A stretch of 64,000 bases of DNA from Plumapathes pennacea (taxonomy: Eukaryota; Cnidaria; Anthozoa; Antipatharia; Myriopathidae): contig OZ038462.1 of NCBI GenBank assembly GCA_964036295.1, forward strand, positions 32,880,355 through 32,944,354, given 5' to 3'. Under the pieces are notes generated by a model. It had not been told where the DNA came from. It searched no databases and was given only the letters and a program-made list of their open reading frames with translations. The position numbers and the translations under genes are program-made. Below are positions 31,285-57,480 of the stretch, piece after piece; position 1 is the stretch's first letter, and the number at the start of each line of letters is the position of its first letter.

Positions 31285-31299
31285 TTTTTCGGTTTTGAT

Positions 31300-33459: not shown

Positions 33460-36408
33460 TCACCTCAGGCCAACGCTGATGAGCTTGTTTGGCATTGTGT
33501 TTGGATAATGTCCATTTCTGTTGAAAGCCACGCCATTGTAATAGGACGAAGTTGCAGACGTGCGAAAGTAAGTGGACGATGTATCTCCTGACCAACTATC
33601 ACACGCCTTATAATTACCATAATTACCCGAGACCATGAAGCCTGAGTAGAATGAGTCGTCACAGACCAAAAGCTGGTACGAGTAGGAACTGGGGGCAAGC
33701 CCAGCCTGAGGAGTCCACAAGCCTTGCTCGACCGCTCCTTTGTTGTAGCTGTCGATAGGCTTTAGTTTCTGATTGGAGATGCCGGAGAAATATTCCTTCT
33801 GATTTGTCTCTTCGTCGACAAAAAGAATCTCAGTAAACTAAAGGATAAAAATAAACCCGGTGTATAAAATAATGTGGCTTCACTGTTGTGCCAGCTGAGT
33901 CTCCTAGTCTTTTTCTTTGCCTTTTTAGTCTCTCTATTGATTTGTTTTTCTCTCTAACTACCTCTGTATAAGGTCGTAAAACTCAACCACAGACAAACTC
34001 AGTTGTCGGAGCATCACACCGGTATCAAAGGTGATGCATGGGTTCGATTTGTTGGAGCCCGCTTTTTTTAGCAAGCCGGTCTATTTCCTTGCACCGCTCA
34101 CTGTCTGTCTATAATGATTTTCTGTGTTCTGTTATATACAACTTTATCAAATATACTAACAACTAAGAAAGTGATTGTCTGAGAAACTAATTCAGTTAAT
34201 CTTACATACACCAACCTCGATGTTATTACAGTTGGTTCTGTAGCCGTTTGTTCCGTAAGGCAGACTGTTGTCATACGTGGTTTCATCTTTAGGGTCGGCA
34301 AGATTGTTTGTTGTATAACACATGGTCCAGCCTCCGCCGAATGACGTCATGTCGCAGTAGGCTGGAAAAGTGCTGCGAGCGTTACTGGTATGGTTCAGTT
34401 GATACAGGCCATCTGGAAGGCTGGGAAAAGTTTGTTTCAGGACTTGACACGAACTCATGTTTACTGAATAGGAGAGGAAAGAAAATGGTCAAATCACCTG
34501 ATGTATGCATTGACAATAGCATGTTGTATACGTTATCAGATGGGTCAGGACTTGCCTGTATGGTATTGACAGTGACGTCCAAAGTAGGCGAGTACACAAC
34601 TGCATTGGTACTGTCCCGTCTCATAAACAGCGTGACAAGTTCCTCCATTCTGACACGGCAAGGTTTCACAAGGAGTCTGTTGTATTGACCAAAGAAATGA
34701 ATATAGATTTATTAAGGATTCCACTCGCGTTTGTACGTGACACATTACTCATTACAGTGGAACCTCCCTGAGCGACCACCTCTCGTAAGCGACCACTTAC
34801 CAAAAGACCGATTGGTCCCGCAGTCAAATTATTATTTATTAGTGAAACCTCACGTAAGCGACCACCTCTCGTAAGCGACCGCGACCACCTTTGATGCTCA
34901 CCGTTTGAGTTTTTCTATTGTTTTTTACCTCCGGTAAGCGACCACTCTTTACTACCAGAGAGCAATTTTTTGAGCAAGGACCGACTTCCTTGCAGAAACC
35001 GGACCGAAGAAAACACCAACATGCGTAATGTAACGTGCAATAGGGCACAAGGTTGATTTCTTAAAACGCAAGGTGTTATTCACTCGCTAAAACTGCTTTT
35101 CTTGACACTGGTTATAGCTCAATGCTGGATCTCACTTAGACCTCCCATGGTGAGAAATTCCCGTAAGCGATCACCTCCCGTAAGCGACCACCCAAAGCCA
35201 AACGAAGGGTGGTCGCTTACAGGAGGTTCCACTGTATCAAATTCAGGAATTTTGGAATCACTCATTGTTCAAAACAGAGGTTGCAAATCGGATGAAATCA
35301 GATTGTCACATTAAAGCGAACAATTATTTTAGGGGTTTTATTTTGAAACCTTTCCGTTCAAGGTACTTGGAAGACGAAAGTGACGTTGGAACTGTCTTTT
35401 AAAATTATACCCGAGTTGTTTAGCAAACAAAGTCGCAGTCTCTAGCACTTTGTGATAAAGTATAGTTTTCGGATGACTGTCGAAAACCAAAACCAAAGTT
35501 TTAATAATACACCGCCAACCACAGAGTTTACAAGAAACAATTTCAACCAATCGGAGGCCAAAGTATTAATTCGCGTTAGGTTTTACCAGTTCATGCGACT
35601 TGTTTGCTTGCGTGAAAATATTGCAATCAGCAGTTTTGCTTTTTCTCCTGATTGTGGCAGATGGTGCTGCTAAACTTGTTTTGAAAACGAAGGAGAGCGC
35701 GGGAAACGCAAAATCAAATAAATCACATGATTATTAGTTCAATCTGTCGGTGTTACATGAGACGCACGAGCTGACGAGTGATGGCAGGTCGCGACAGGGT
35801 GCTGTTTTGATCGAAATTTGCGTTCGAGCCAATTTCTCGCGGAATACAATAGAAAATCGATAAAGGACAACGAATTTGCGGAGATGTATTGAAAATAGGT
35901 CACGATACAAAAAAGAAATCAAAAAATGAAAAAATGAAAAAAATCGAAAAATGTCCACGGAAGTCTCCGATAAGCGCTAAAAGTGAAATCCTCAATAAGG
36001 TAAATCGAAAATTAGGTATTCTGAGTTTCAACTAAACTTAAAAGTCATTCGCGACAGCAACTTTACCTGAATGCTGTAGTGGTGAAACTGCTGGCTGGGT
36101 TTGAAGTCGCTGGACGAGTTATACTTGTCAGTGGCCAGGAGCTGACATTCGTACTTGTTATTCGCATCTGGTGAATGAGCCTCATTATATGATTTGCACC
36201 GAGTGTTTTTCATGCAGGCAAACGCACAGGAGCCGAATTGGCTTTCTTTGGTAGAAGTTATCACCGACGCGTTCAACATGGTGTGCATGTGTTGTACGAA
36301 GTTTGCATGGCTGTGTTGAGGACCTCGACTCAGATGATGATGCTGTTGGGCGTCAGCTCCCAGGAAGATAGCAGTGAGATAAACCGCAGACATTGTTAGA
36401 AGTTTCAT
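33460..36408 (-). CDS. Gene A: secreted PAN-EGF-fibrinogen-like protein
   Basis: Four exons (36067-36408, 34556-34676, 34216-34463, 33460-33837) join in frame to 362 aa. Exon 1 has a signal peptide (MKLLTMSAVYLTAIFLGADA) and a PAN/apple-like domain (SCAFACMKNTRCKSYN, YECQLL). Exon 2 is a single EGF domain (PCETLPCQNGGTC, CSCVLAYFGRHC). Exon 3 starts a fibrinogen-related domain (LPDGLYQL, YCDMTSFGGGWTMCYTT). Exon 4 gives a Tyr/Ser-rich C-terminus (VCDDSFYSGFMVSG, NGVAFNRNGHYPN) ending LISVGLR. The C-terminal part is not a canonical fibrinogen domain and looks cnidarian-specific. The exon 2 donor is AG|GCAAGT, so intron 2 is of GC-AG type. Paralogue: gene B at 52387-57480. The likely role is extracellular glycan or microbe recognition, inferred from domains only. 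Confidence 0.82.
34755..35234. mobile_element. Tc1/mariner-type MITE, 480 bp
   Basis: Ends CAGTGGAACCTCC and GGAGGTTCCACTG are inverted and flanked by TA on both sides. CGTAAGCGACCACC boxes repeat inside in both orientations. No transposase. It lies in intron 1 of gene A. Confidence 0.8.
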
Positions 36409-36841
36409 GCTTCAAAAACGCAGAGCCGGTAGTGATTCTGAAAATACGAATACTCTCAATTGATGCTTTCTAGATTCGCTGGAAGTCGAACTATCTGGGT
36501 TGCAATAATTAATGCCGGAGAATTTTAAAAATAAACTTTGTCAGAAGCACCTGCCTTGCGGTGGTGATACAGATGCCAATATATAATGATAACGGGTTTC
36601 TGGAAGTTTCCTAACTTTCGGCAAGAAAATGAAAGAGCTCCACCGGGCATATTCAATAGATTGAATGTTTTCTAAACCCAACAGAAAAGTCAAAACAGTT
36701 CAATCGTTTGCTTGCTTAATAATGAAACGACACCACAACTCTATAGAAACATATTCATAAGTAACGAGCCTTTAAATAAATAATTCGCGAATCAGTCACC
36801 ATTCTCAAAAGAACCTCTGAATTCAAATGCTTAGCTTCGAC

Positions 36842-37053
36842 CAGGGACCAGTGTTCAAAGCCCGGTTAAGCTAATCCAGAGATCAAGCCAACAAACTGCA
36901 AGATTTTGTTTAAAGACCAACTAAAAAGCTTCTTTTAGCGGAAAACTTTCAAGTACGCTGAATTCTAAGCAAAACCTTCCCGTTTTTAGGCTTGAAATGA
37001 CCAAATGTTTGCTGCTAATCCAGGATTAGCCTAATCGTTCTTCGAACAACCAG
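36842..37053. mobile_element. MITE, diverged member of the GGTCCGG family
   Basis: Shares TTCAAAGCCCGGTTAAGC, TTAAGCTAATCC and CCAGGATTAGCCTAATCGTT with the neighbour at 37053-37277. The two are adjacent and in the same orientation. Confidence 0.55.
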
Positions 37054-37277
37054 GGTCCGGTTTTTCGAAAGCCGATTAAGGTATTATCCAGGATTAACGA
37101 AATTCTTTCTCTCGACCTCTCTGCCAATAAACTGCAGAGTTTTGTTCAAAGATGGATTAAAAAGCTTGTTCCAGCTTAAAAACGCATAAAGGAAGTTGTT
37201 ATGGACGAAACCTTCACATTTGCAGGCATTGCACCTAATCCAGGATTAGCCTAATCGTGCTTTGAAAAACCGGACCC
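37053..37277. mobile_element. MITE, GGTCCGG family
   Basis: Ends GGGTCCGGTTTTTCGAAAGC and GCTTTGAAAAACCGGACCC are inverted. A third member lies reversed at 49695-49936, sharing AAGCTTGTTCCAGCTT and TCTCTCGACCTCTCTGCCAA. No ORF. Confidence 0.7.
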
Positions 37278-37304
37278 AGGCCCAGAGCTACAAATACACA
37301 CCTC

Positions 37305-37454
37305 GACCGTGTTTAGACGAGATACGTTTACCGCATTTTCTATTGTTCTAAACTACATTTACCCAGGTTTTGTAAATTTTCTACACGCGTGGTACGTTTA
37401 CTTCATTAAAGTAAATGCTTTCACCGAGGTAAATGTGTCTCGTGTGAACACGGC
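37305..37454. mobile_element. 150 bp MITE
   Basis: Ends GACCGTGTTTAGACGAG and CTCGTGTGAACACGGC are imperfect inverted repeats. It carries TTTACC-rich boxes. Confidence 0.5.
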
Positions 37455-38111
37455 ATTAGCTCACTGCACACGGTGCAGCATTGCACTAAACAATTGCACC
37501 GTGTGCCCACCCAATTGCATGCAAAAGTGCGCACAATGTTCCGTGTTGAATCTTCATCTTGCAAAAAGCACAATTTTTTCTTCTGGTCTACGATGGTGAC
37601 GCGTGATGAGCAGGTATGCTTTCCCTAATTGGCGTGGAAATAAAACTACAGTGGAGGACAAAATCAGTCCTTACATGGAAGTTATAGTCGCTCGTGACTG
37701 CTGAACATTTGAAATCAAAATCGAAGTCTGGATTAGTAGTCCCGCAGAGCTTGGGGAAAATACCAGTAACTTACTTCTCAATTAAAGCAAGATGTATACC
37801 ACATATATTAAGTGTAAATGTGTTTTTACACAGACAGCACAATTTGCTAAAATTTTGACCATTTGTGCCCTTGCCGCTTTTACCCACTCAGTCACTCAGT
37901 TCATCTTTCGCCATCTTTGTTTATCAATACATTTGACAGGTGCAGTAAATTTTTAACTAGTAGATCTGTTAGCATTGATATTGTTCGTTACTTTTATTCG
38001 ACAAAACAACCGGCCAAAGTATGCACCTCTCTGTCTAATGCTCGGTTTTTACCACAAAATTTCGCTTTATCCCATATTTCGACCCTATCGTGTTTGCATC
38101 AATCTATATAA

Positions 38112-38291
38112 ACAATAAACTACTTTTGGCGAGGAAATATGCACGGATAATTGTCCGAGGATATTATCTGTTCCGAGAAGCGAACAGTTCCCCGAGAGCG
38201 AAGCTCGAGGGCAACTGTGAGCTTCGAGGAACAGATAATGTCCAAGGACAATTATCCGTGCATATTTCCGAAGCCAAAAGTAGTTTATTGT
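38112..38291. repeat. 180 bp long hairpin element
   Basis: ACAATAAACTACTTTTGGC at the left pairs with GCCAAAAGTAGTTTATTGT at the right. Pairing continues through GAAATATGCACGGATAATTG and its complement, and AACAGATAATGTCC. It is an almost full-length palindrome, probably a MITE, lying about 450 bases upstream of the gene C start codon. Confidence 0.75.
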
Positions 38292-38741
38292 CTTTATTAT
38301 CCTTCAAATATTTCCTCTCGCAGCGCAAATAACGGCGCGGAAACTGTGAAGCTTTTTAGTGCTATCTGGAACTGCTTTTTGACCAATATATTGATGTCCT
38401 CCTCAGTAGTCATCTTGTAATGATTTTTGTGACTAAATAAATAGAACTGTGTTCGGATATTGTCAATAAACAGCGTTAGTTCGCCAGGCGGGGGTTATTC
38501 GCTGATAACGTCCGCTCACGAGCGGACGTTATTCGGTCACGTGTCACGATTCTACCAATCCCCCGCGGGAGGAAATATTTGATGGGTCATAAATGCAAAT
38601 ATTGCACGCATATATAGTGCTGCATAATTAACATTCGCTTATTTGTTACATGTAAGTCTATCTAACACTTTCAAAGTCATTCCCAAACAGTACACGTTGG
38701 CTGGACAACTGCAGAAGCAAATAAAGAACCGATCGAAGATC

Positions 38742-41700
38742 ATGGAATTTCGGTGGATCCCTCTACTGGAGTTTTTTATCTCGTGTGTTCTGTCGTTAGG
38801 AGAGCAAGGTAAGAATACCGTTTTATTACATGAAATCGTGTGTGATACATAGATTTCCGCAACTGATAAATAGGGACTTTAAGCAAACTAGGACGGCGAC
38901 GGCAACGCGAGGAACCATGAAAAAGGTACCTCCATATTCTATGTCTTTATAACTTTGTCTGTTCTTAGGTAGCTAAATTTTTTCCGTTTTTGCCGAGGTT
39001 CTATTGCATTCATCGTCTCCTACTGAGAAGAACGAGTGTCGTAATTTCTCGAAATGCTGTCCACGTCCTGACAACAACTTAAACACGTTTTGTCGCGTGA
39101 AAACGCGACAGACGCTGGGATTCAAGTTTGGTGTGGCAAGTGTCCGCTCGCACCATAAGAATTGTTGAATAAGCAATCTCTGGACTAGAGCGAGAATTCC
39201 AAGAGTGATCAACTTCAATTTTCTCTTTCAATTTCTCACCCGAAAAAATATGATACAGTTTAGGGAACCTGGCTTTGACGTGAACATTATCCAATCAAAA
39301 TATAATACTTTGCTCACACGTCAATCAAACTTCAAAATCCTAGAGGGGGGAGGGACTTCTTTTACCAATTGTCATGATACCTACGCTGTGGTTTTCGGGT
39401 GAAAACAAAGGCCCAGCATAAAAAGAAGCATTTGAAGTCGCACGCGAGCGCACGACGACCCCGAGATCATATCAGTTTCAGATTTTTTCACATGCTCCTT
39501 TTGTGTCTTCTGCAATTATTTCTATTGTTTCACTGACGTTGTCGTTGCCGTTCCAACACGTCAGTTTTTACGTGTTTTGATATCAGCCAAGCAGTGATTT
39601 TGTATGTTTTCGAATTTCTCAGTGGCGGAAACCTAGGTATCACACCAAAGTTTATGAAATAAACAGAATAATACATGGACGCTTGGAGATATAAAATTTA
39701 TCTTCTCGTATCATCTCGATAACTCGATAAATAGCATATCTCTGTGTGCTCATGTATTCTCTATCTACCCCGATTTTTTCCTCTGGTCTGTTTTTCATTG
39801 CCTATTTCCATCACTAACAATCATATATTTTGGAGTTTAAAACTGAAAACTCAAATTATCTTTCTGGCACAACTATGTGCATGAATCTATTCACAAGTTT
39901 GCTAACCGTATAGTTTAAAAAGTGAAAACTCGACTTAGGTATCGCAAGAGAGTACGAGGTAAGAGAACGTATCCCTCATACGTGGCTCTATTCCCAGGAC
40001 AGTTATTTGAAATCTGTTTTTAGAGAAAGTATTATTTTTAGTTAGGCAAGGCTATCATTGAGTTTTTCACAAATATTCATATTATACCTGCAGATGTGTC
40101 AGTGCAAGAGCTCGAGAGTCAGGTCCTGGGCCTCGCTCGAGACCAAAATAGCTCCTGCGCTAAAAATAGACTTCAAATAATTGTCACGAGTCACGGGGAT
40201 ATAGATGTTCTCTTACCTCATACTCTCTTGGTATCCACAGTAATGTAGAACTGTATGTGGGGTCTCGTCGGGTATTTTCTTTTTTCGGGTAAGTTTCATT
40301 CATACTGAGATTTCACGAGATTTGTGCCTTTGAAAACACGAACATTCGTTGCCGAGTAAACTTCCACCTTTGGAGACTTGACTAATTGATAATGAATTGA
40401 GCAGTCGTAAAGAAGTTTTACAAACTAAGAACATATCTTCAGTAAAGGATGAGGTCAAACCAGCTTCAGTTTCTCGTGCTAAGCCAATCTTTACAAACTG
40501 ACAAAATCTCCTCTCGATTGTCATGCAGCTTCAGTTGAATGTTTGCTTCGAGCCGCGAGCCGTTCCTTGTTTCGTTCGAGTGCATTGCTCTTATCGACTG
40601 CTTTGATATACCCAGCATTTAGCCCAAAGTTAGTCCATGAAGAAATGACGGCCTGGGATCGTTTCTAGTTCCGAAACTCAAATTGAATCGCGGAGACGGT
40701 CCGTTGAGTTTATTGTGGTGTAAGCCCCGCGGGTTTCCTCGATTATTCCTTTGCTGTGAGAAGTGTTCTTGGTAGCTTGAAGTCTCGAGTTCGTCTTTGC
40801 TCTCGTACACTTGCTTTTCTGAGTAGTTCAACAGTAAATTATTTTTCTCAAGTCTCCGGCGGCAATCTTTCAGTTATTTTGAAGCAGCTATAGAAAGTAT
40901 CGCACGATTCGCTTCACGGGTGTCTTACGATTGGACGAAACAACTTTTTCACACGTGAAAAAAGCCGTTCGCGACAGTGATTGGCTAATAAAATTTTCAA
41001 ACGAAGTTTTCACGTCAGTGTTTCCGTGCTTAAATCTCAGGCCCCGTCCACACTACGCCGGATAAATTTGAAAACGCAACTTTCACTATGAAAACGCAAG
41101 AAATGTTTTCCGTTCACACTGGAAAACGGATAAAATGTTTCCGGGCCCAAATGTATTGTTATTGCTTTACAAACGTCCCTGACAATCTTTGAAACCACTT
41201 GACGTGACCACGTGAGTCAGAGTTTTCGAAAAGTTCCGTTTTCAAAATGTTTTTCGTCCACACCAAAACGCAAAGCCGGCGTTTTCAAATTTATCCACTT
41301 TGAAGAGCGTTTTCGAAAAGTTCCGTTTTCGTGGACAATTTATCCGGATTAGTGTGGACGGTAGGCCTAACCGTAAGAATAAAGTTGCGTTTTCAAATTT
41401 ATCCGGCGTAGTGTGGACGGGGCCTCAGTATGTATGAAATAAATACATCTATTTGTAAAATTGGTGGCAACCATGCTTATAGCTACGCAAACACATGCAC
41501 TCCTTTTAAGTTCTTCTAAGCTTGCACTGTCCTGGTTCACAGTATAGTTTTTTTCCGTCTCAGAAATACTCGCGCTTCTGGCCAACATAGTTTACTCGAA
41601 ATGGTTTTTCGCTGCGTTTACGAGAAAATTGCACCTCTAATATTAATTTTCCACATAGGAGTAGAACCGGCTTGCAGTAGTGAACTTTCCGCTTAATTAA

Positions 41701-44700
41701 TAGCTGAAACTCAGTTGGTGAATTTGCTTGTTTGATCTGCAGGTTCTTGTCCGCGACAGAATAAATACTTGCCAGATATGCAAGGCAAGCGTCTAACTAA
41801 ACATGTTATTCGCTCCATTGGCGTTCAATCTGCCTCCGGTTGTGAAATCGAGTGTTTCCTGGAAGAATTCTGTGTGTCTTACAACCTGGGACCATTTCAA
41901 CATGGGAGACACGTCTGTGAGCTGAGTAACTCTGACGCCATCCGACATCCACTGGACCTGGTACCTGACCCTGCATACAACTATAGGGAAACTGTCGTAA
42001 GTACTTTTGTAACTCATACCAGCCATAAAAGAATGCAAAAGCACGTTTCAGCTGACGTATCGTATGTGAATAGACACTAACACTGTCCACAGTTAGTTTC
42101 TGCTGTCCAGGACTGAGTTTCCCATATCTTACTTATTTCCAAGCTAACTTTTTCTGTATAGTCTAAAACCATACAGAAAAATACAGCTTCAATCACACGT
42201 TCATAGAGTTTCATCTATGATCTTCAGAACGCCTGCACCAGTAGTCCCTGTCCAAGCAAAGCCAACTGCAGTTCGCTATCGGAAACAGACTACAGATGCG
42301 TCTGTCCTGTCGGCTACACCGGAATGAAATGTGAGACAGGTCTAGACAGTGAGTATACTGTGCCGATTGTGTGGGGTACGTCGAGTATATGTAACGAATT
42401 TAATGTGTCCTTTGTGAACCTTGTTTCTTCATTTTTACTATCTTTGTTCTCTGTTTTCAAACATCGATGACTTGTCTGTTAACTGCATAAATAATCCGGG
42501 TCTTTATAAATGTACGTGCCAGCCGGGGTTCGCCAATGATTCAACGAGGTTCCAATGATTCAACAAGCAATCAGAGATATAATCTGATTATTTGGCCGTA
42601 ATGCGTGCCAACTATAGTGAAAATTGAAGTAAACAATTCGCCGATTCACCAAGGAAGCCCATAGTTTGATTCGGTGCACAGAGGCCAAGTAAAAAACTGA
42701 AAAGTAAGCCTCCTTTTTATCAGAAATGTCACTGTCTACTCAGTCCGTTAGTCTGTGATGTGTCGTGCGTACCATTATATGCGACCCGAAGTTTTCTGAG
42801 GCCTGTTTTGAGCGACCAGTCGTACTATAGCAGCCACGATTCACGCTGTGTAAGCGCCGCTCTTGGCGAAGTCGAATGTTTTGAAGATGACGGAGGCGAC
42901 TTTACTGGGGAACAAATTTTGATCCCTCGATCCTAATTCTGTGAACTGAAAGTTGTGGTATACCAGTCCACTCCTAGCACAAGTTTTCGGCATTGGAACA
43001 AAATAAATTATATAGAACTTGTTGGTTGAGTATGTTTGTTTTTTTTAGCTACTGGGAATGTATGCGAGCAAAACTTTCGAGCTGCTTTACATGAGATATT
43101 TCAAGTAAGCCGTGCGCGTAAAAAGGCTTCGGACCAACCTGCAGTGATTTCTCACGTAGCCTCGCCAAAGACCGTATATTAGGACACATCGTAAAACTGG
43201 CTTTATTTCGAGATTTTGCAATATCCCTGTAAAAATTCAGACATAAATAATATCTTGCAACTGTGGTCGTTCTGAATGAAAATGTGTTTGTTCTCAAAGA
43301 GCTGAACGTGGCCAAAAGTTCAACTTAAAGCGATTTCAATTCCCGATTTCAATCGGCACTCTTGATAATTAAATGTTTAGTGTCGCTTTCACAGAGTACT
43401 TACATCAAAATTCGCTTCTGTGTTTCTCTTGTATCTTTCAAGTTGATGAAAATGAAAAGCCATGACGACTCCTGCAATTTTTTAGTGAGCGCGTACGCTT
43501 TTTTTTGTTTGTTTGTTCATTGTCGTGCACAACTTTCCGATTCAATTTGTAATAATTTTTGCCGTAAAATAGATCAGTTTTTGTTGTAATAGAAAACAAA
43601 TCGCGTACAGTTTGCCGTATCACGAGTATGACGTCATAAAATGTTCAATACTGCAAGTGCTCACGTTCGGAGAAAACGGCGAGAGACAATAAACACTGCC
43701 CCAGAAACATCGCATCGTCAGAACGAGCGCTCAATTTTATGCTGATATTTATATGAAATTGGCAGTTGTGGCACAGTGTTTACTACTAGCACAAACAGGC
43801 TGTTTAACGATGAATTTATTCTGAACTGGTACTTTTCCCGTTTTCTTTGACTTTATTTCTGGGACTATCACAGTCGGGAATATTGCTCTGAACAAGCCTT
43901 CGAGCCAATCCAGTGACTTTCGTCAGGATACTCCAGCTAAGTTAGCAGTAGATGGGAATTTGGATACGGCCATGTCAGGGAAGAGCTGCACGCACACTAA
44001 ACACGACACAGCACCATGGTGGATGGTTGACTTGGGAACCCCTTCGCTTGTAAAAATGGTGTATATTGTGAACAGGGGAGGCTGCTGTGGAGAAAGACTC
44101 AGTGGATTTGAGATTCGTGTTGGTGAGTATCACAGGTTATTTTATAATGTATTTATTGATACGACCGAATTGAGAAAAATCTTCCTGACAATGACGGCCC
44201 TTACGCGTTCGCTCCATTGAGATAATTATTTTGAAGACATTCCATCTCCAGCAGATAGCACGTGTTGTAAATTCTGCAACAAGGGCCATTTTGGGGGTTT
44301 AAAGGTACGTGCAAACGCGCCCAACATTCAACATTGCTGCTCCCAACATGTTGGGGGTGTTTGACTTGTTGAGAGTTGCTGGGCGAAGTTTGAAACGCTT
44401 CAAATTTTGAGCCAACAAGTCCCAACAGGGTTGATTGACATCGTTTAAAGTTTTGTCCAGTGGTTGAATACCAAAAATAATCATTACTAAGCCGCGTGAA
44501 GCTTCATTGAGTTTCTGTTCATGAATTAATTTTCTGGGTGTGTTTGCAGGAGACAATCCTGCGGATGGTGGATCCGCTAATGCACTTTGCGGAAGTGGAC
44601 TCAGCGTACTGCAAGATCAAGGAAAAAATTTTTACTGCGAGGGTCCCCCTAAAGGCAGATATGTGTCTGTACGGATCCCAGGCAGACAGGAATGGCTCAC

Positions 44701-47700
44701 CTTGTGCGAAGTGGAGGTTTATTCTACCGGTAGGTTGAATAATGAATGTATCCATTTATGGTATCTAGGCTATTACCTTAAATTCAGTTGGGAGTACTCT
44801 TGAGGTGTGATGCGTTTTATGACTGAAAGTGCAGAAAAATACGAAAAGAACACGATTACAGAAAGCCCATTTAATTGTACTGCCTATGAATTCAAAACTG
44901 GAATTTTTCCCGTACTACGGCGGCCGACCAACTTCACAATTCAGGTACTAAATGTTTGAGAGTGTGCCCTGCAGACTGCATAAATTAATTTGGCATGTCG
45001 ACCGTGAGAAATACATACAAGGCGTCACGCAATTGATTCTATTTTCAACGCACAAGTATAACACACACTTGACTTCGCGAAGAAATTCAGAACTGTAGTC
45101 GTTCTGAATGAAAATATATTTCTCGAAGAGCGAAAAGTCGCCAAAAGTCAACTTTAAGCGATTTCAATCGGCACTCGTGAGTTGTTCGCTATAAAATAGA
45201 TATTTTGTTGTTGTAATAAACAAATTGCGTAAGGTTTGCCGCTGTTTGTGTTCTTATTAGGGAACTTACGCAATGACACGACGGCAGGCCTCACGACGGC
45301 ACTTCAGCCGAGCGCGCCTGGGGCGATAACGTCAAAATCACTCGCGCGGTCCTGGCTCACGCGAACCGCAATGTTTACACGACTGCATCACGACGGCAAA
45401 CCTGACACTTGTTGCCAGTGAAAATGGCAACATTCAGAGAAGCGCGAGATTGCCTTTTGTTTGCTCACGATGAAGGCGAAATAGACGACGAAGAACTCCT
45501 TCTCTTGTACGACGTAAACACTTCTCGAAATCCAGAGTTTCCGTACTGGAGGTACGATCAGTTTGACTTAGAAGAGATTTCAGATGCGGAGTGCAAAGCA
45601 GACTTTCGCTTTTTGAAAAATGATTTGTACACTCTCAAGGATGCCCTCCGAATACCCGAGGAAATAATATGCCCAAACAGAATTCGTGTGGATGGAATGG
45701 AGGCCCTGTGTATCCTGTTGCGCCGATTTGCGTACCCTTGTCGGTATGGTGACATGATTCCTCGCTTTGGTCGACCTGTCGCACAGCTCTCAATGATTTC
45801 AAGGGAGACGATGAGCTTCATACACACACAACATGGCCATCTTCTGTCTCATCTCTTCTGCCTTCTCCCTATCTACCTCCACTCTATCTCTAGACTGTTC
45901 CTTTTCCTGCCTGGCCTCTAGATCTGCCTCTTTAAATTTGTCGATAATCTCCTCTATCAATTCATCCAAAGGTGTTTTTTCAGGTGAAACACCACTAGCT
46001 GCCTCTTCCTCCCTCATCCTTCTTTTGTATTTTTTTTCCAGCAGATTGTATCTGTCTCGGACAGAGCGTTGCCTTACATGGAAGGCCAGTTGTTGGTTAG
46101 AATTCAGCCTTCCAGCAATGGCCTCCCATGCCTGACCCTCTCTTGTTGATGGCCTGAACCTAAATGGTTTGCCACTACTACTTCTTGGAGCAGAGTCTCA
46201 CCATGTTCATTGCTCCAATCCATTTTTGCATGTGACCTATAAGTAAAGTTAGGTGTGTTACAAAAAATTGTTAAAACATTACTGCAGCAGCTAATAATTT
46301 AGAGACAACATGTGCCTCCTGCATGATACTGGAATTTCTTCTTCGTTGCTTTAGTTGTTTTGATCACAACCTGTTAAACACTCAAGGAAAAATATCACCC
46401 TGACTTTTTCTGAACCTAATATTTACAGTTGCCACATATCTAAATAGCTTTAGTATTGAATTTTTAAATATTAAAATGATCACAGCAGCTCGAAGCCATT
46501 AAATGGAAATCAAACAGGAATAAAATATAAATTTTTCGATCGAACAAAACAATGAACAAATAAAGGCTTGAACCAATGTTTGGAGGCTTAATTTGCAAAT
46601 TTGCAGAGTAAAATAATCGACAAAAAGTCGTACAAAGATGGAATGTTATACCTTAGCGACTTTTAGCCCAACATAACACTATGAAGAGTCCATTAATGAA
46701 CGTACAATGATTTTACAGTTACACTAGTTGTACCGAAAAACTAATGTGCCCAAATCTATCCTGCCGAACTATTCAAGCCGGGAGGATCGCTTGCACAATC
46801 CGGCACATTACTGGTTGAAACAGAAACTTCTCAGCGACTCAACTCATTCAATAAACACAATATACATACTCACGTTCTGATCACAACGTGAAATCCCCCT
46901 CTTTCACGTCCACTACATCGAGACGACGGCTGACGCGACTGTTTGAGACATGCGCACCACGGCCTTTTAACTGTCACGCATTCGTTTTGCCGTCGTGAGG
47001 CCTGCCGTCGTGTCGTTGCGTAAGTTCCCTATTATCACGGCTATGACGTCATAAAATGTTAGTCAAAACTGCAAGTGCTTACTTTCGGAGAAAACGACGA
47101 AGACAATAAAAGAGCCCCCAAAACATCGCATCGTCAAAACGAGGGCTCAATTTTACGCTTATATTTATGTGAAATTTATATAGTAGTTGTTGCACAGTGT
47201 TTACTGTCTCCTAGCACATCAGGCTATTTATTCTGAACTGGTACTTTTCCCGCATTCTTTGCCTCCATTTCTGGGACCATCACAGTCGCGAATATTGCCC
47301 TGAACAAACCCTCGAGCCAATCCAGTGACTATGAGAATACTCCAGCTAAGTTAGCAGTGGATGGGAATTTGGATACGGCCTGGTCAGGGAAGAGTTGCAC
47401 ACACACTAAACACGACACAGAACCATGGTGGATGGTTGACTTGGAAATCCCTTCGCTTGTAAAAACGGTATATATTGTGAACAGGGGAGACTGCTGTGGA
47501 GAAAGACTCAGTGGATTTGAGATTCGTGTTGGTGAGTATCACAGGTTGTTTTGTAATGTATTTATCGATACGACCGAATTGAGAAAAATCTTCTTGACCA
47601 TGACGGCTTTACGCGTTTGTTCTATTGAGAAGGAGATAAGTAGTTTGAAGGCATTTCATCTCCAGCAGATAGCCTATGTTGTAAATTCTACAACATAGGA

Positions 47701-48664
47701 CCATTTGGGGGGTTAAAAGCTACGTGCAAACGCGCCCAACATTGTTGACTAACAACATTCAACATTTATTAAATCACAGGCGGCCCAAGCTGATTGACTG
47801 TGTGACGTCACGGTTGGGTTTTTTAAGAAAATGTATGGGAGATTTTAGTCGATCGATAACTCGAAAAATATTGCGAGAATAGAGCTTAGACTTGCTAACC
47901 TTGTTGTGGTGTTGGTTTTCTTGCTGCTGTAGCGATTTCAGCGTGTTTTGCTGAAGCGCTGAAATCGCTACAGCAGCAAGAAAACCACCACCTCTTAACA
48001 TGTTGGGGTGTTTGACATGTGGTCGGGGGCGTTTGAACATCCTCTTGGGTGTTGTTAGAAGTTGCTGCGCGAAGTTTGAAACGCTTCAAATGTTTGAGCC
48101 ACCGGGTCCCAACAGGGTCTACTGACATCATTCAGTGTTTTTAAGTGGTTGAATACCAAAAAAGATCATTACTTAAGCCGCGTGCAGCGTGACCGAGTTT
48201 CTGTTCGTGAATTAATTTTCTGGGTGTGTTTGCAGGAGACAATCCTGTGGATGGTGGATCCACTAATGCACTTTGCGGAAGTGGACTCAGCGTACCGCAA
48301 GGTCAAGGAAAGAACTTTTACTGCGAGGGTCCCCCTAAAGGCAGATATGTGTCTGTACGGATCCCGGGCAAACAGAAAGTTCTCACCCTGTGCGAAGTGG
48401 AGGTCTATTCTACCGGTAGGTTGAATAATGAATGTATCCATTTATGGTATCTAAGCTCTTACCCTAAACTCAGTTGGGAGTACTCACGAGGTGTGTATGC
48501 GTTTTATTCAGAGCGTTCTGTTCAGACATCGACAGATGACGCATCCAAGTAGCAAAAGCAATAAGCATACAGAGTACGCAGTAGCTTAATCAACACAACT
48601 TTTGCTCTATACTACTGGTGGAGGGGTGGAAAACCCCAGGGGGTGGGGGAAGGGACACTTAGGG

Positions 48665-48696
<32 letters not shown>

Positions 48697-49616: not shown

Positions 49617-49694
49617 TGTCATATGACGATGGAAAGTGTTGGAATTAAAAATTCAAACTAATTTTCTCATTTTGAGTGCGGGCACTAATGTCAT

Positions 49695-49936
49695 GGGCCC
49701 AGTTTTTCAAAGCACGATTAGGTTAATCCTGGATTAGATGTAAACTTTCTTGTCATTTAGTAGCCTAAAAAACGTGAAATTTTCGTCCACAACGACTTTC
49801 TTGATAACGTTGTAAGCTGGAACAAGCTTTTTAATCCATCTTCGAACAAACTCCTGCAGTATATTGGCAGAGAGGTCGAGAGAAAGAATTTCCATAATCC
49901 TTGATTAACTAAATCGACTTTCGAAAAACCGGGCCC
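49695..49936. mobile_element. MITE, GGTCCGG family, inverted copy
   Basis: Begins GGGCCCAGTTTTTCAAAGC and ends TTTCGAAAAACCGGGCCC. It is the reverse-oriented relative of 37053-37277. Confidence 0.7.
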
Positions 49937-51290
49937 TGGTTGACAACTAACTCTCGTCTGATAAAGCCGTGGAAAAGTATGAAGGTACAGAAAACGCACA
50001 AAATATTGGTTGACATTCCCCTGAGTGGGAAACGTTAATTGCACTAAATGTAATTAACGTTTCCCTGTTGCACTGAGTGCAATTAACGCCTTTAATATCA
50101 CTTAGTGCAAATTAGCGATTAACTTGCTTGCTCTCAGCCAATCAGATTACATAAATTTTCATAGTCATATGATAAAAGCGGCTCGGTAAAAAGCCACCGC
50201 TATTCGGAGATTGAGTATATTGAGTATAAGCCAATCAGAGCGCGCGGAAAGCACTATTCTCTTGTGGGTTGTATATACTAACAACAGTTACTGAGTTTCG
50301 AACGACGAAATAGCAGTCGATTTACTGGTTACTATACAAGTGCAATCTAAAAAGTAGTGGGCGCTTGATGTGGGTCTATAAAGACTGACATTGCTTTAAA
50401 AGTATTCCCTAAGTACTATTTACAATATGAGTGACGATGTTGTATCTGATTTACAATCTTGAGTCTTTTGGAACCCAAAAAGTTATCAGGAGAAGCACTC
50501 CTGGTTAAAAGAAACTATTCCGCGTATGGAGTGTTGAATAAACTGACTCACACAGCTGACTAGGTATTCAAAAGAAGGCTGGAACTGATGTTACGAAGCT
50601 TCAACAAGACGGTGTGCACATCAAGTCATGCCGGCATTGATGGATTTAAAACTTCAGCAAAATGTTGTGTTTCATCGTTGAATCTTCAGGCCGGTTGAGT
50701 TGGGACAAGAGACTGTTAGACACTTGACCATTACAGAGTGAGGATATTATACCATAGGAACTCACATAAAGAACCACTCAGTGATAACTTCAATCTTTAA
50801 TAATTATTCATATATTTTACATTTTGGTATGCACATGCACAGACCCCGGGTCAACTAGGACCGTGAGACCCACTAATCTATTGCAAACAGTACTACGCAA
50901 AATAATGCTTTTTTTTGTTACCTATTCCCAGAATGATTCTGGAATGAACAGAACAGTATTCCGTATCGTGTGGCCCGCCAGCGATGCTTTGGCTCGCTTT
51001 AGGGCGGCGCTCGTAACTTCTGCGCATGATTGTGAGAGTGGCTTATGCTAGTGCGAGTGTCTGTATAAATTCTTTGGTTTCGTTGTCACATCACCTTAAC
51101 GCAACGTGTTGTTGCCTCGAATATACATCAGAACAAGAACAATATTTGGTCTTATGGTACATTTTGTATTATCTCTTTTTCTATAGAAATAGTCGTCATG
51201 ATGTGCAAGCTAAGAAAAATGCAAAATGCCAATCCTTGTTCAGTCATTTTGCGGCCCATTGATAATACAAAAACTAGGGCAAACATTATT

Positions 51291-51526
51291 GGCCGATTTT
51301 TTAAACAAGGTTTAGACCGCGCTTAAGAAAGTCCTCGTCTAAACAAGATTTAAACAACAGCCATGCTTAATGGACAACGGGCAAACGTTGTCTTTGTAAA
51401 CTAACTCCGATCCATGTTCTAAAAATGCAATTTAACGTTTTACTAACCCTGTTTTACAGCGTCCGTTTAAACTTTAATTTAGCGATAAACCAGGTCTAAG
51501 TTAGACTTTGTTTAAAAAATCGTTCC
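51291..51526. mobile_element. MITE with TTTTTTAAACAA ends
   Basis: Left GATTTTTTAAACAAGGTTTA pairs imperfectly with right TTTGTTTAAAAAATC. It is rich in TTTAAAC boxes. Target duplication not resolved. Confidence 0.45.
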
Positions 51527-52386
51527 TATGTGTTCTCCTAGTCATCATATTTTGATCCTATACTAAAGTTCCACGCACGCTTCTTGAGAACTTGTACAGA
51601 AAAAAAAGAAAGAAAGAAAGAACATAACAAAAGCGTACCGTCACTCCCCTCTGTCCCATGATTTTCAGTGCAGTCTCACTTTCGATCTGTTTTGTAGGAG
51701 CTAAAACGTATTCCCCAACAAAGATAGCAAAAGATACCCTGCCTCTATGTACTACACTACATTATTTGTCACATTTTTGTGCTTCCACCGGAAGGGGTTT
51801 TTGGAGATATGACGTCAGTAGTAGAGGCTTACTAGAAATTCACGCTCCTACCGCAGAGGATCTCCGTGTTTTTCTTTTTTTTTGTTGCAGTTGCTGTCAG
51901 TGTTGTTTTTATCCGGGTATGAAAACACTCAACGAGTTTTATAAAAACACCAAGACTTGCATGTTTAGCTTTTCCATTTCGATAGCATTTTTACAATTTG
52001 TTTGATCATAGAATTAACTGACGTGTCCACTAAAAATATATTTGTGGAACACGACTGTGTGGAACTTGTTCTCGATTATCGTACTGACGAGCACTGTTTA
52101 ATTTGCTATCAGTAAAGGCAACCACCTGCTGGCAAAGAGTTAATTTCCAATTTAAAATATCGTTGTTATGTCAAAGAATCTACAGGTACCATGAAAACGA
52201 CAGGGCGCCGTCCGTTATACAATGTAGGCGACCAAAGTTGTTGTGAACATGCAGGCACCGCAGAGACTTGGAGTGTTATTGATGGTTGACGACTACTCTA
52301 GGGGTCATACCTCCAGGCAACACATTCAATTGACAACATCACTCTCCTGATAACAATGAACAAGCTGCTCCTGTCATGGCGACTCA

Positions 52387-55300
52387 TTATCGCAGACCAA
52401 CACTCACAAGTTTGTTTGGGACTGGTCGATGGCCATTGATGTTAAAAGCTACTCCACTGTACCTGCTACTTGTAGAAGCCGTGCGAAAGTATGGAGAGGC
52501 TACATCTCCGCACCACTTGGTACAACGCTTGAAGCAATTGTTGGTGTAACCAGAGACATGGAATCCAGAATAGAAAGAGTTGTCACAGATCATCACTTGG
52601 TACGAGTACGACGCGTCCGCGAGTCCGTGGGAATCCCACAATCCTTGTGGTGCAGCATTATTGTTGTAACTGTCAATCGGCTTTATATTCTGGCCAGACT
52701 TCCTGGAAAAATATTCCTTTTGTTTTGTTTCCTCATCAATGAATATAATTTCTGAAAACTGGAGAAAGAGGAGAAGACACTTTATTTTGCGACCAATGCA
52801 GGTCGAGCCCTTTAACTACTAATGTTCAACTGTTAACTGAAAATGAAGGTGTGGCCACTGAAACGAATGCTCCAAATGCAAAGCCGTAATCCCCGAGCGA
52901 AGCAAAGCGAAGTGAGGGTAATAATCACGGCGCTAATGAATTAATATAGCCTAACTTGGGGACTCCAAGCCTGTCGCCATCTCGAAATTTAACGTTCGTC
53001 TGTCAGTCAGTCTGTCTGGCGTACGACTTTAGGCGCGGTTACCCTGCATAACCAATAACAAAGGCCGGATCGATCACGTGTGCACTGTAGTTTACTCGGA
53101 ATTTGAGCGAAGCAATTAGATTTGAACGATACAACAATATATCGTAGCTGCGTTCCCGAAAATGGAAAACTTAAAAACTGGAAAACTTGAAACACAACAG
53201 TCTTGCGAAGCTCGTATTCAAATAAGGGAACAGACACGAGCAAGGCGAAATCGTGAAACGAGCGAACAGCGCTTAATTCGTCTCGAGAAAAGGCGACAAT
53301 CCTTTTATGATCGACAGCATCATAAACAGAAGCGTGCCGAAGAAACGACTCCGCAAAGGGAACAGCGCTTGCAAGCAAATCGGGAGCTTCAGACGCCGTT
53401 TTGTGTTAAACTCAGATACTTATTTAGAAAGGACAAGCAACAAAGGTTAGTCAGTGAAAATCGAACAATCACCGTGACAAATATATTCTATCCCGTATAG
53501 CCTGTAACTCGATCGCTTCAAGAATGTATTAAAATCTGTATGCTGATCATTTTCCCTCGAAGTATTGTTTTAATACGCTTCTGTCGCCAGTTTCGGCTAC
53601 CGTATTCGCTCAGAGCAATCGGAACTTGGTGAATGATTTAGTCAGATGTGTTATTTTTCTATAATCTGACACGCGGTGATTGCAGCGAGAATCGTTCACA
53701 AGCCTTTGAGAAGTATGATTAGGTCTGAAGCCCGTGTATAATTTGAGGTAAACCGTTCAAGTTTTGCTTTGATTCTGGGAGAAATCATGCTGTTTTGAGC
53801 GGGTTTACATACAAAACAATTCGAGCCTATTAAATATGCATTCCCGGGGTCTGGTGCATGCAGTCCAGAGTAAAAACAAATCGCACAGGAAGTCTATTTA
53901 ATTGTACTGCCTATGAATTCAAAATTGGAAAATCAGTGTTCCTTTTTTCCGTACTAGGACGGCCGACCAACTTCAAAATTTAAGTATTAAATTTTGAGAA
54001 CGTGCTTGGAAGACTATGAATTAATTTGACGTGCCTACCGTGGGAAATACGTACTTCGTCACGCAATCGACTTTTTTTCAACGCAAAAGTATAACATACA
54101 CCATTCTTTTTCTCCGTCCTTTCCGTGTAGCACTTTACTTCGAAGAAAAGATTGAGCCAACATTTCGGCAAAACAAAGGCTATACTAACTCTTGTTGGGA
54201 GTACTAAAGTAAAAGTCCCATCAATGGCAGAGCGAGGAGGTATCTGCGATTATTGTATTTCTAGTATATTTTATTATTAGTGTTCAGTTGAAACTTTTGA
54301 ACTATTCAATTAACCTTTAAGACCAATATGCACTTAATGAAGCCCTGAATGAGTTATGTTGAGTATTCACATCCAACTCCTGACTTCTCATGTGAAAGGG
54401 ACCACTCAAGAAAAAATGATATATCTGTGTGCAGTTTAATAGCAGTCTGTGCTCGCTTCTAACTCCTGAACTGTCACAGTGAAAGCAACATATGTCACCA
54501 ATCAACGAAAGGTCTAAACGAGTGCACGCTACTATATATCAGTGTTCAAGTTGTTGACGAGCTCGGTATTCATGACTTTTTGCGATTTTATCAACACCCG
54601 TCTCTGTGTGATTAAAGAGTCATGTGTTGAAAATGTAAAGATTAATCTAAGGTACCAACCTCGATGTTATTACAGTTGGTTCTGTAGCCGTTTGTTCCGT
54701 AAGGCAGATTGTTGTCATACGTGGTTTCGTCTTTAGGGTCGGCGCGATTGTTTGTTGTATAACACATGGTCCACCCTCCGCCGAATGATGTCATGTCACA
54801 GTGAGCAGGAATTACGTTGCCAGGGTTACTGGTATCATTCAATTTATAGACACCGTCCTGAGAGCCAGGGTTGCTTTCCTTGATGGCAGCGCAATTTATA
54901 AAACATGAAGCTGAAAAACGATTAAAAATAGTTTAGCCAGGCGCAACTAAATACAACTATACTAGCGGGACCCTGTTAAATACAGGTGGCATCCGTTTTT
55001 TTCTTTTTTTTTTTTCTTTTTTTTTTAACTTGTCTTTCTTTTTGCCTTTTTGAAATGTCTGTTTTAAAGCATCTTGGATGCAGTATCAGACTAATTAAAG
55101 AGCTTAAGGATAATATGGGTCTGGTCAGAGCTACGCAAGCTTATTTAGATTCTCAGTAGAATATTTTCTACTAGTGACGAAAATAAGAAGGCAGCCTCGG
55201 AGTGATGGGGCCAACTCAGTGAAAAATTCTTGAATTTCTGTCGTGGCAACTGGAAAATGGGAACGACGACTAGGTGTGCAAGGCACCAGGGTCATGGAAG

Positions 55301-57480
55301 TTCTTTGGACTCAAGTTTTATCTACTTACGATGTTGGCAGTGATTCCCTGTGTATTTAGAGGTACAGGCGCACTGGTACCGTCCCGTCTTGTAGTCAGCA
55401 AGACAAGTGCCTCCATTTTGGCACGGCGAAGATTCACAAGGACTCTGTTGTATAAAAACGTTAAGGAATAAATCCATTTGTTGTTATGAACTTGTATGGA
55501 CTTACGACGAGCAAGTAACTGCCCGAAAATTGTACAGCCCTGTTAATTACTTTCTAGCTCATAAAATTTAGTGATAGCAAGAAAAATGATAGCGGAAGAT
55601 AATACATTCAAACCCGCGCGCGTAACTTGACGTTGAATAATCTTTTTTCTTGGACTTTGCCTCGCAACGTGTTGCAGCAACTTACGACATCGTTGCACAG
55701 TTTAACACCCCTCCAGCAACTTGTGTCGCAGTTTTTGCCTTGGCGCGACCAAGAGCGCATGTGCAGTTCTTCATAATTATTCAAATCCCGACGTGCTGAC
55801 GTGTGAAATTTACAGCGTGCCAATGGGCCCGGTCGCACTGGAAAGTTTAGTCGATAATAACTCAGCATCGAGAACAATACGAGGGCTTCTTCAAAGTTTG
55901 CTAGCAACTTGCTGACATATATTTCTGGTGACAAGCGCTGTTTGCACTTCGAATAATGTAATTCTCAATATTAATGTCGTTAAAGTTACGAGTGCGACCG
56001 GAGCCAATAACTCTCCAGTATTCTTCAACATAACTAATCGTTGCAAATTGCTGAGATCGCGTTGCACACACCACCTCCGCAACAGTAACGAAAATTTTTC
56101 AACCGTTGCGAGACAAGTTACCGGCTGAGAAAATTGCACAGTGTAACAGCGCCCAGCTTTTCTCTAAAATATACGTCTTATCGTATTATATTTTTGGAGC
56201 TCGTTTCAATCGAGAACGAAACACAGGGTCCAGAGGAGTTCAGTTTGAACACCCGAACTTTACTTTGCAAAAATAAAACCCCACCGCTTTTTACATATAT
56301 TCTGCAGGCCAAAGCTTGTGTATACAGGCTTTGGCCTGGCCCACAAGGTTGCCAAGCCAACTTACGGTAACACTTTGTGCCTCCTGGCGCGACGGTGATA
56401 AAAACAAATAGTTTCCAGTAAGTTTGAGAAAGCAAACAAAACCAACAGACACTTGCACTGGCTATTTGACATAAAAGTTTCTTGATTAAAAATTGATGAA
56501 CACGAAAGGGCGCTAAGCTCGGCAAAAAAGAATCACAATCATATATCTACACGAGTTTACTATCAAACAATTTTATCTGATCAATAGTTGTCTTAAATTC
56601 ACCGTTCAATAGTTATTGACTTCGGAAGATTTACAGCGTCCGGGAATTTTAATAGTACTGATGCTACTTCATATAGAGATGTTCAGTAAAAAAAAAAAAA
56701 TGTGTGGGCGAAGGCTAAAACTTGAGCCGTTTGCACTTAAATAGCTGAAATGAAATTGGTCCAGGATCAGAACCAAGATCGATCGTATTGATGTGCAATA
56801 CACTGTCAAAAAATCACTTAGATCGATCAAGGACTCTTCACATGGGCTTTTTAGAAGAGAACTGATGTCAACTCAAAAATTATTAACATTTTTAAAAAGC
56901 AATTATTTCCCACTAAGAGCTGAAAAAGTTGAGTATGATGTCTTTCTGTTTGTTTATGCCACGAATGTAAAGGGCGCCAGAAAGTGTGGTATATAGATAT
57001 CACCAAAAACACTATTTTAATCCACTACATATACAATACCAAATATAATGCAATATAACATAGGCATATACACCAAGATGTATTTTTTAAGTAGAAAAGG
57101 GTAGCATTTAGGTTTCGTTTTACCTTGATGCTGTAGTGGTCAAAGTGTTCGCTGGATCTGTAGCTGTTGGAGTCTTTATACCTATCGGTTGCCAGAAGCT
57201 GACATTCGTACCTGCTTTTTGCATCGGGCGATGTCGCCACATTATACGAATAACATGCAGCGTTTAGCAAACACGTGAAGGCACAAGACGAGCGTTCCTT
57301 CTCCTTGCTAGTGGCGATCGCTGACACATTCAAAACCTTGTGAGGATGACTCACAAAGTTGGCGTGCCGGCTCTCCTCAGAGCCGCGGTGAAAATTTTGA
57401 TCTTGATGAGCAATGGTAAATTGCAACCAAAAAATAGAACCAAAAGCGACGAAACACCATGATACTGCCAAACCTGTCAT
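52387..57480 (-). CDS. Gene B: secreted PAN-EGF-fibrinogen-like protein
   Basis: Paralogue of gene A with the same four-exon plan: 57124-57480, 55330-55444, 54660-54910, 52387-52758, in frame, 364 aa. Exon 1 has a signal peptide (MTGLAVSWCFVAFGSIFWLQ) and a PAN-like domain (SCAFTCLLNAACYSYN, YECQLLATDRY). Exon 2 is EGF (PCESSPCQNGGTC, CACTSKYTGNHC). Exon 3 has DGVYKLNDTSNPG, CDMTSFGGGWTMCYTTNN and PYGTNGYRTNCNNIE, nearly identical to A. Exon 4 has IFIDEETKQKEYFS, MICDNSFYSGFHVSG and GVAFNINGHRP, ending LVSVGLR. The exon 2 donor is ordinary GT, unlike A. Intron 3 holds a whole Helitron, and intron 1 a repeat shared with 62.7 kb. Confidence 0.82.
52890..54264 (+). mobile_element. Non-autonomous Helitron, copy 2 (1,375 bp)
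   Basis: Starts TCCCCGAGCGAAGC after an A and ends GTATTTCTAG before a T, with the GCAGA/TCTGC hairpin just inside. It is collinear with copy 1 (5786-7140) over its whole length and has the same ORF. It sits in intron 3 of gene B, antisense to it. Confidence 0.75.
53162..53500 (+). CDS. Basic Arg/Glu-rich protein of the Helitron, copy 2
   Basis: 112 aa counterpart of 6002-6433: NLKTGKLETQQSCEARIQ, ARRNRETSEQRLIRLEKRRQ, and FCVKLRYLFRKDKQQRL. It differs by small indels in multiples of three near the start and by an earlier stop after NIFYPV. Expression is unknown. Confidence 0.5.
   Translation: MENLKTGKLETQQSCEARIQIREQTRARRNRETSEQRLIRLEKRRQSFYDRQHHKQKRAEETTPQREQRLQANRELQTPFCVKLRYLFRKDKQQRLVSENRTITVTNIFYPV
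55827..56385. repeat. Composite repeat, copy 1
   Basis: Direct repeat of 62722-63277, about 95% identical by eye. Its first part (55827-56152, ends GGGCCCGGTCGCACTG and CAGTGTAACAGCGCCC) looks like a MITE. The second part contains the hairpin GGCCAAAGCTTGTGTATACAG with GCTTTGGCC. It lies in intron 1 of gene B. Confidence 0.7.

Follow-up and report, generated by a model that had tools for sequence, protein, structure and literature searches.

Exchange of C-terminal lectin-like ends between genes of a PAN-EGF family in Plumapathes pennacea

The 64,000-nucleotide stretch of the Plumapathes pennacea genome analysed here, hereafter the window (assembly GCA_964036295.1, contig OZ038462.1; C1:32880355-32944354), carries three genes, A, B and C, that join a signal peptide, a PAN module and an EGF module to lectin-like C-terminal ends. 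Comparison with their relatives demonstrates, at the level of sequence, that gene copies have traded ends and exons with one another, and the genes belong to what is by these comparisons an exon-shuffled lectin-like multigene family, in which pairings are remade at phase-compatible introns and one junction is mapped in the DNA. The preferred reading, to which we give a probability of about 75%, is that of a tandem-array family whose copies exchange ends and exons and whose EGF stalk presents the C-terminal lectin. An earlier note on this DNA had suspected a shuffled family with interchangeable C-termini, and copies outside the window support this well, since one type of front half (the beta chassis) precedes a fibrinogen-like (FBG) end in five genes and an F-type lectin (FTP) end in three, with a sharp breakpoint in an intron.

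Exchanged ends and their pairings across the genome

The gene models are predictions from genomic sequence. Genes A (33460-36408, minus strand, 362 residues) and B (52387-57480, minus strand, 364 residues) have four exons each, with intron phases 0, 1, 0, encoding the signal peptide with PAN, the EGF module, and the two parts of the FBG end, FBG-N and FBG-C. Gene C (38742-48552, plus strand, 477 residues) has seven exons, encoding the signal peptide, PAN, EGF and the halves of two FTP domains (FTP1a, FTP1b, FTP2a and FTP2b), with phases 1, 0, 1, 1, 1, 1 and GT-AG sites at every intron. All three are multi-exon genes with open frames and compatible phases, and the only exception to GT-AG splice sites is one GC donor in A. 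The earlier proposal of three clustered genes holds in these coordinates, C being encoded on the plus strand and flanked by A and B, which are both on the minus strand; the model of C includes a corrected first exon and a calcium-EGF relic. The boundary from EGF to the end is in phase 1 in A, B and C, for FBG and FTP ends alike, so that any end starting in phase 1 can be spliced on in frame. Single modules of the three genes have close copies in the same order at other places of the genome (290 Mb, 24 contigs, one assembly), which is more than chance.

The clearest exchange was found on the beta chassis, where C and the FBG-type gene b650, 1.7 Mb away, are 94.1% identical in PAN and 94.6% in EGF at the protein level. 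Gene b650 and the FTP-type gene b590 match each other in a single blastn hit (1,239 bp, 87.6% identity) that spans PAN, the intron, EGF and the first calcium-EGF exon. Measured in windows of 60 columns, identity lies at 92-98% between EGF and the end of calcium-EGF-1, falls to 82% one window later and then to 30-40%. The blastn match stops some 50 bp inside the intron that follows calcium-EGF-1 (b650:2587, b590:2609). Beyond this breakpoint C, b590 and b615 have a common intron sequence of their own, C being about 85% identical to the others and b590 98% to b615. The calcium-EGF exon is a relic in C, with the acceptor AG lost and an internal deletion, is open in b590 and is truncated in b615 (L027). 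A '121-bp repeat' at the breakpoint was considered as a dispersed mobile element mediating recombination and was rejected, as the repeat is the calcium-EGF exon itself.

Other exons appear to have moved as well. The FBG-C exon of the PAN-beta gene F differs from those of PAN-alpha genes by synonymous divergences (dS) of only 0.083 (E2), 0.152 (B) and 0.171 (D), and is as close to them as they are to each other; the PAN module of F differs from nine other PAN-beta copies by a dS of 0.52-0.78. These values point to an exchange in F, with no mapped breakpoint, unlike the b650/b590 junction. Genes A and B differ by a dS of 2.5 in PAN and 2.8 in FBG-C, but by 0.575 in FBG-N, and the FBG-N core of A has a dS of 0.39 against B, 0.275 against F and 0.263 against b650. 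Against three copies on chromosome C2 this core approaches saturation (proportion of synonymous differences 0.69-0.83, seven comparisons), so it is not simply constrained; strong purifying selection as the cause of the low dS in A was rejected by this control. The FBG-N exon of A thus looks like the product of gene conversion confined to about one exon, though some other exon-limited mechanism may have acted.

That the ends were gained as ancient independent domain acquisitions, with no recent exchange, is a reading we strongly disfavour. The four PAN-alpha-EGF-FTP sets on chromosome C9, whose FTP-N exons are 53-55% identical to that of C, may represent such an old or an independent pairing. 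However, recent exchange is required by the 92-98% DNA identity that ends abruptly in an intron and by ends that stand on different chassis yet have a dS of 0.08.

It was also considered whether C is not one gene but a truncated PAN-EGF copy upstream of a separate PAN-less gene with two FTP domains. A PAN-less FTP pair of this kind does exist on the same chromosome at C1:34.127-34.132 Mb (L014 and L015; 34128670-34131823) and matches the FTP part of C with its upstream intron; no PAN-alpha or PAN-beta was found near it among the matches listed (150 of 245 and 150 of 224 candidates scored). The calcium-EGF exon in C is dead, and the PAN copies b601 and b317 (beta) and E1 (alpha) are without a detectable end in the sequence covered. 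Against two genes, the same order is present at three loci (C, b590 and b615/b622), intron sequence past the breakpoint is shared by C, b590 and b615, the phases of C fit, its frames are open and its PAN module is under purifying selection, and the four C9 sets show the architecture independently. Two separate genes are accordingly judged improbable, and the PAN-less pair is plausibly a relative of the FTP donor. Both of its copies have the histidine of the fucose motif replaced (SCACTKND), and the ligand may therefore differ.

As F and G are the most divergent beta genes in the C1 clusters and both are of the FBG type, FBG would be the older partner of the beta chassis and FTP the newcomer. 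Beside gene G lies a further FBG-C exon, interrupted by a stop (C1:32986922-32987209); it is a decaying copy, as are b590 with the stop in its PAN exon and b615 with its truncated calcium-EGF exon.

The family was searched genome-wide with single exons, the counts including the query and those of large families being lower bounds. The FBG-N exon gave 42 matches, including 9 close ones on C1, FBG-C gave 17, and FTP-N gave 63, of which 7 are close. At least 127 matches were found for PAN-beta (10 close; 150 of 224 candidates scored) and at least 150 for PAN-alpha (5 in the C1 cluster; 150 of 245 scored). On chromosome C6 a PAN-alpha-EGF front half runs into a third type of end, which has 86 matches in the genome, fragments among them, and no match in Pfam or PDB. 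In the map of fetched copies PAN-alpha-EGF-FBG is represented by A, B, D and E2, PAN-beta-EGF-FBG by F, G, b631, b644 and b650, and PAN-beta-EGF-FTP by C, b590 and b615, the last with 4 kb unread between EGF and FTP. The calcium-EGF exon was matched twice in all five beta FBG genes (translations made for four).

Pairings were then counted by assigning each end to the nearest PAN upstream on the same strand within 8 kb, using 75 of the 86 third-end rows after the 11 weakest short fragments were dropped. FBG-C (n=17) was paired with alpha in 4, beta in 6 and neither in 7 cases, all 7 on C2; FTP-N (n=63) with alpha in 4, beta in 4 and neither in 55; and the third end (n=75) with alpha in 40, beta in 8 and neither in 27. 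For the third end, 21 of the 48 upstream PAN distances are just 643-945 bp. Some ends share one PAN in this grid, namely the two FTPs of C, the two FBG-C exons of G and at least three pairs of third ends. Because the third end stands behind both PAN types, all six combinations of PAN and end occur by this count, and the two alternative ends that the earlier note had described become at least three.

The array G000:C2:35149678-35181370 (L057-L060) holds the relatives of the FBG-type end in which 7 of 7 exons have no PAN within 8 kb upstream, and its genes would be PAN-less or headed differently. At G000:C10:15.81-15.86 Mb PAN-alpha and PAN-beta copies stand in one array before the same third end type, which makes this a second place for possible chassis exchange.

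Identity of the domains and weight of the evidence

The claim that C ends in two F-type lectins is borne out by its FTP part, which matches Pfam F5_F8_type_C_2 over two stretches (E=1.1e-37) and, among PDB sequences, FBP32 (E=1.8e-63) and the eel agglutinin AAA (1.1e-27; domain of about 140 residues), so that on sequence grounds membership of the F-type lectin family is secure. FTP2 aligns to AAA without gaps over His...Arg-X-Asp-X4-Arg and the Cys pair and thus has the complete fucose motif; the His-Arg spacing is 26 residues in FTP2 and AAA as aligned, versus HX24RXDX4 in the accessible text of a review (PMC5712786). Binding of fucosylated glycans by FTP2 is therefore suggested. FTP1 has Met in place of a Trp that is retained by 3 of the 6 other close copies, and RGD is kept in all six other close FTP-N exons on C1 (seven with C), two of which have lost the motif His.

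Scanned on the PAN region alone, A (22.7 bits) and C (23.9) pass the Pfam PAN_1 gathering cut-off of 21.4; as whole proteins they fall below it (17.3 and 20.0) and B is not listed. All PAN rows scanned, 6 alpha and 5 beta, matched at E<=1. Profile searches of PDB gave no match for PAN-alpha and a single irrelevant one for PAN-beta (E=0.25). The PAN-alpha of A and B and the PAN-beta of C are related at profile level only (hhalign 93.4%, E=2.6e-7, 25% identity), and their genome match lists share no place (150 of 245 and 150 of 224 candidates scored). The common signal peptide-PAN-EGF chassis proposed earlier is accordingly retained as a series of module types and not as a single chassis within the window, where A and B are alpha and C is beta. 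For EGF (Pfam cut-off 21.5) B scores 23.6, with A (20.4) and C (15.9) under the cut-off; among PDB sequences, EGF repeats of Notch and Delta-like proteins match the EGF region of C. The ratio of nonsynonymous to synonymous divergence (dN/dS) of the PAN of C against seven close beta copies is 0.15-0.31 over a short stretch, by which this PAN is under purifying selection.

The fibrinogen-like end described for A and B is upheld over its first 50 or so residues. A profile of nine sequences matched intelectin-1 (E=1.6e-7, positions 1-49) in the manner of intelectin and FReD domains, and gave no sequence match past position 56 of 203; the remaining 150 or so residues gave nothing above cut-off in Pfam or PDB sequences. 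The Fibrinogen_C cut-off of 22 bits was missed by A (14.8) and by a C2 relative (21.9), and B was not listed at E<=1. Structure prediction of the FBG-C exon of B taken alone had a mean confidence (pLDDT) of 37.8 and was not interpretable.

Several observations count against the proposed family of exchanged lectin ends. The PAN exon of b590 carries a stop (L028, C1:34589505-34589762), and in a chassis tree of ten beta genes the FTP genes were united in 0% of 200 bootstrap trees; the firmly supported branches of this tree are compatible with one FTP origin, and two long branches meet in it. In the FBG-N exon of A the tract of similarity stops at the exon border, which is unusual for simple conversion. 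When the pairing grid was repeated with PAN within 8 kb downstream as control, FBG-C was paired in 3 of 17, FTP-N in 4 of 63 and the third end in 33 of 75 cases (against 48 upstream); because the arrays are dense, downstream pairings are frequent for the third end and above zero for the other two, and distance alone is therefore weak evidence for the third end. As to that end, the C6 copies that were read are the only ones in which an EGF was observed between it and PAN. The fucose motif of FTP1 is broken by Gly for Asp (RGG versus RGD). Finally, the dN/dS of FTP-N, at 0.40-0.84 in 15 of 21 pairs and above 1 in 6 over short stretches, is higher than that of PAN, which is compatible with relaxed constraint and fits diversification equally well.

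Some of these points would also be expected if C were a pseudogene in decay and recombination in the arrays had produced the PAN-EGF-FTP form on C1 as an unsuccessful side product. The relic exon, the lost Asp of FTP1, the transposon-like insert in an intron, the stop in the sister gene b590 and the dN/dS of FTP above that of PAN all agree with decay. The 477 open codons with canonical splice sites, the low dN/dS of PAN and the complete motif of FTP2 speak against it, and we consider decay unlikely.

The proteins are probably secreted, having signal peptides and no membrane anchor, both judged by eye. Together with the fucose motif of FTP2 these are the only features pointing to secreted recognition proteins for microbe or symbiont glycans, as put forward in the earlier note, and a role in immunity or symbiosis could be envisaged from there. 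A tentative but serious alternative is that the products are structural, or proteins of the cnidocyst or extracellular matrix, in which swapping of ends tunes adhesion and not recognition of microbes. As far as the available text of one study goes, Nematostella has a vastly expanded family of fibrinogen-related proteins (FREPs), several of which are found in mature cnidocytes, and PAN/Apple-FA58C combinations occur in its Polydom proteins (PMC12549020). The complete fucose motif of FTP2 would rather suggest glycan binding, though matrix ligands are compatible with it.

Coordinates and neighbouring features

The features of the three genes are collected in Table 1. The first exon of C was found through its sister b317, which was hit in a scan for a hydrophobic start followed by a phase-1 donor; the first-exon peptides of C (at 38742) and b317, MGLQWILLLEFFISC.. 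and MEFRWIPLLEFFISC.., are 70% identical. This exon lies about 3 kb 5' of the PAN exon and has its counterpart in that one other beta gene. It replaced a candidate at 41601-41676, whose putative signal peptide looked unconserved in sister genes by eye. The Pfam and PDB searches of C were made with the older N-terminus; its domain matches all lie beyond residue 37 and are therefore unaffected. Where C ends is uncertain, since the FTP part is followed by a donor (GTAGGT); the first 24 or so tail residues resemble those of the other copies, but the stop positions differ.

Table 1. Exons and associated features of genes A, B and C, in window positions.
Feature	Position	Strand	Basis
A exon 1: signal peptide (by eye) and PAN-alpha	36067..36408	-	gene model; PAN_1 22.7 bits on PAN part
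A exon 2: EGF, GC-AG donor, phase 1	34556..34676	-	gene model; Pfam EGF 20.4 bits, below cut-off
A exon 3: FBG-N, intelectin/FReD-like start; 3' ~190 bp looks gene-converted	34216..34463	-	gene model, dS
A exon 4: FBG-C (C-terminal part, orphan) and stop	33460..33837	-	gene model, profile
B exon 1: signal peptide (by eye) and PAN-alpha	57124..57480	-	gene model
B exon 2: EGF, phase 1 donor	55330..55444	-	PF00008 23.6 bits
B exon 3: FBG-N	54660..54910	-	gene model, profile
B exon 4: FBG-C and stop	52387..52758	-	17 genome matches including itself
C exon 1: signal peptide, phase 1	38742..38808	+	70% identity to first exon of beta gene b317
C exon 2: PAN-beta	41743..41996	+	PAN_1 23.9 bits; 94% to PAN of FBG-type b650
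C exon 3: EGF, phase-1 donor	42228..42348	+	gene model
C calcium-EGF exon relic; limits approximate	42461..42555	+	no acceptor AG, internally deleted
C first half of FTP1, with RGG for the motif RGD	43874..44122	+	gene model, alignment
C FTP1 second half	44550..44729	+	gene model
Transposon-like insert, 47-bp terminal inverted repeats, intron FTP1-FTP2, outside gene product	45255..47034	.	repeat ends
C FTP2 first half, complete fucose motif	47286..47531	+	alignment, gene model
C second half of FTP2, then tail as far as the stop; 3' limit uncertain	48236..48552	+	gene model

The inverted ends of the insert in C are 96% complementary over 47 bp, and its open frames look like those of PIF/Harbinger elements. 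A similar basic open frame (KTGKLET...KLRYLFRKDKQQRLVS...) occurs twice, at 53126-53497 (+) and 6002-6430 (+), and is probably a repeat element; one copy lies inside the last intron of B, which is longer than in the paralogue D. Beside gene A a frame that looks by eye like a seven-helix receptor and its broken near-copy were seen (28606-29610 and 31205-31925, minus strand), as were Kelch/BTB-looking frames, also by eye, at 24144-27632 (minus strand).

Proposed mechanism and known systems

Exon shuffling in animals is usually deduced from domain architectures that are old. In the present family the point of change-over, the differing ends and a dead left-over exon are legible in DNA whose identity around the junction still exceeds 90%. 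The plan of the family would be a signal peptide, a PAN module (alpha or beta), an EGF module, with two calcium-EGF modules in FBG-type beta genes, and a C-terminal recognition-like end; near-identical beta chassis carry either the FTP end or calcium-EGF-2 with the FBG end. Tandem duplication may have given copies that mispair, and unequal crossing-over and gene conversion between them would then create new pairings of chassis and end. In the proteins the EGF stalk might present the C-terminal lectin, with FTP2 on fucosylated glycans and PAN serving attachment or oligomerisation. A fixed front half with a swapped, sugar-binding-like back half could vary the recognition of microbes or of own cells. 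It is conceivable, though we think it doubtful, that this amounts to a germline mix-and-match repertoire, in which a fixed PAN-EGF half is continually re-paired with a pool of ends (FTP, FBG-type and the third, orphan end) by intron recombination and exon conversion, with individuals differing in the end that each chassis carries, as an anthozoan counterpart of combinatorial innate immunity. The family lends itself to the question of whether recognition repertoires are renewed, in animals that lack adaptive immunity, through recombination of entire lectin-like ends between tandem gene copies, and the junctions are ready-made markers for population and expression work.

Cnidarian parallels are given here as far as the accessible parts of the sources go. 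Tandem duplicates make up almost a third of the genes in two corals, tandem duplication being pervasive in corals (PMC10236652), and EGF and PAN are among the domains joined to C-type lectins in cnidarians (PMC8260672). Fucolectin-like sequences are reported from Aiptasia (PMC2702317) and lectin-like proteins from coral larvae and settlers (PMC12960093), and contact between glycan and lectin is a candidate step in symbiont uptake, although symbiosis is not wholly prevented when this contact is blocked (PMC12852126). As regards the undescribed system suggested in the earlier note, a literature search of titles and the beginnings of abstracts, with most subscription papers and all supplements beyond reach, gave no PAN-EGF genes with exchanged FTP and fibrinogen ends, and in the accessible parts of PMC5712786, PMC10236652, PMC12549020, PMC8260672, PMC2702317 and PMC12960093 such a family is not described.

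Several known systems resemble this family in part. FREPs, in the partly available accounts of the snail proteins and the Nematostella expansion, share with it a large multigene family, an N-terminal FReD-like motif in the end and signs of gene conversion; they differ in that the FBG end described here is FReD/intelectin-like over only 50 or so residues and does not reach Fibrinogen_C, and that PAN-EGF stands in place of the IgSF part of snail FREPs. Among PDB entries the FTP part of C is closest to FBP32 of striped bass, FTP2 aligning to each FBP32 domain; the tandem FTP pair is a known layout, and FTP2 has the residues of the fucose motif. In C, by contrast, the FTPs are joined to PAN and EGF, and FTP1 is without the motif Asp. 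Shuffling of F-type lectin domains has been described, and a Nematostella protein combines an F-type lectin with CCP and EGF-like domains (PMC5712786). This is an anthozoan EGF-like/F-type lectin combination as in C, but the accessible text of the review names CCP and others and not PAN, and reports no exchange of ends. The oyster bindins of the same review, as summarised there, have tandem F-type lectin modules with an intron inside each domain and recombine in that intron as a source of variety; in P. pennacea, as known from one assembly, it is whole, unlike C-terminal ends that have been swapped on a PAN-EGF chassis across gene copies.

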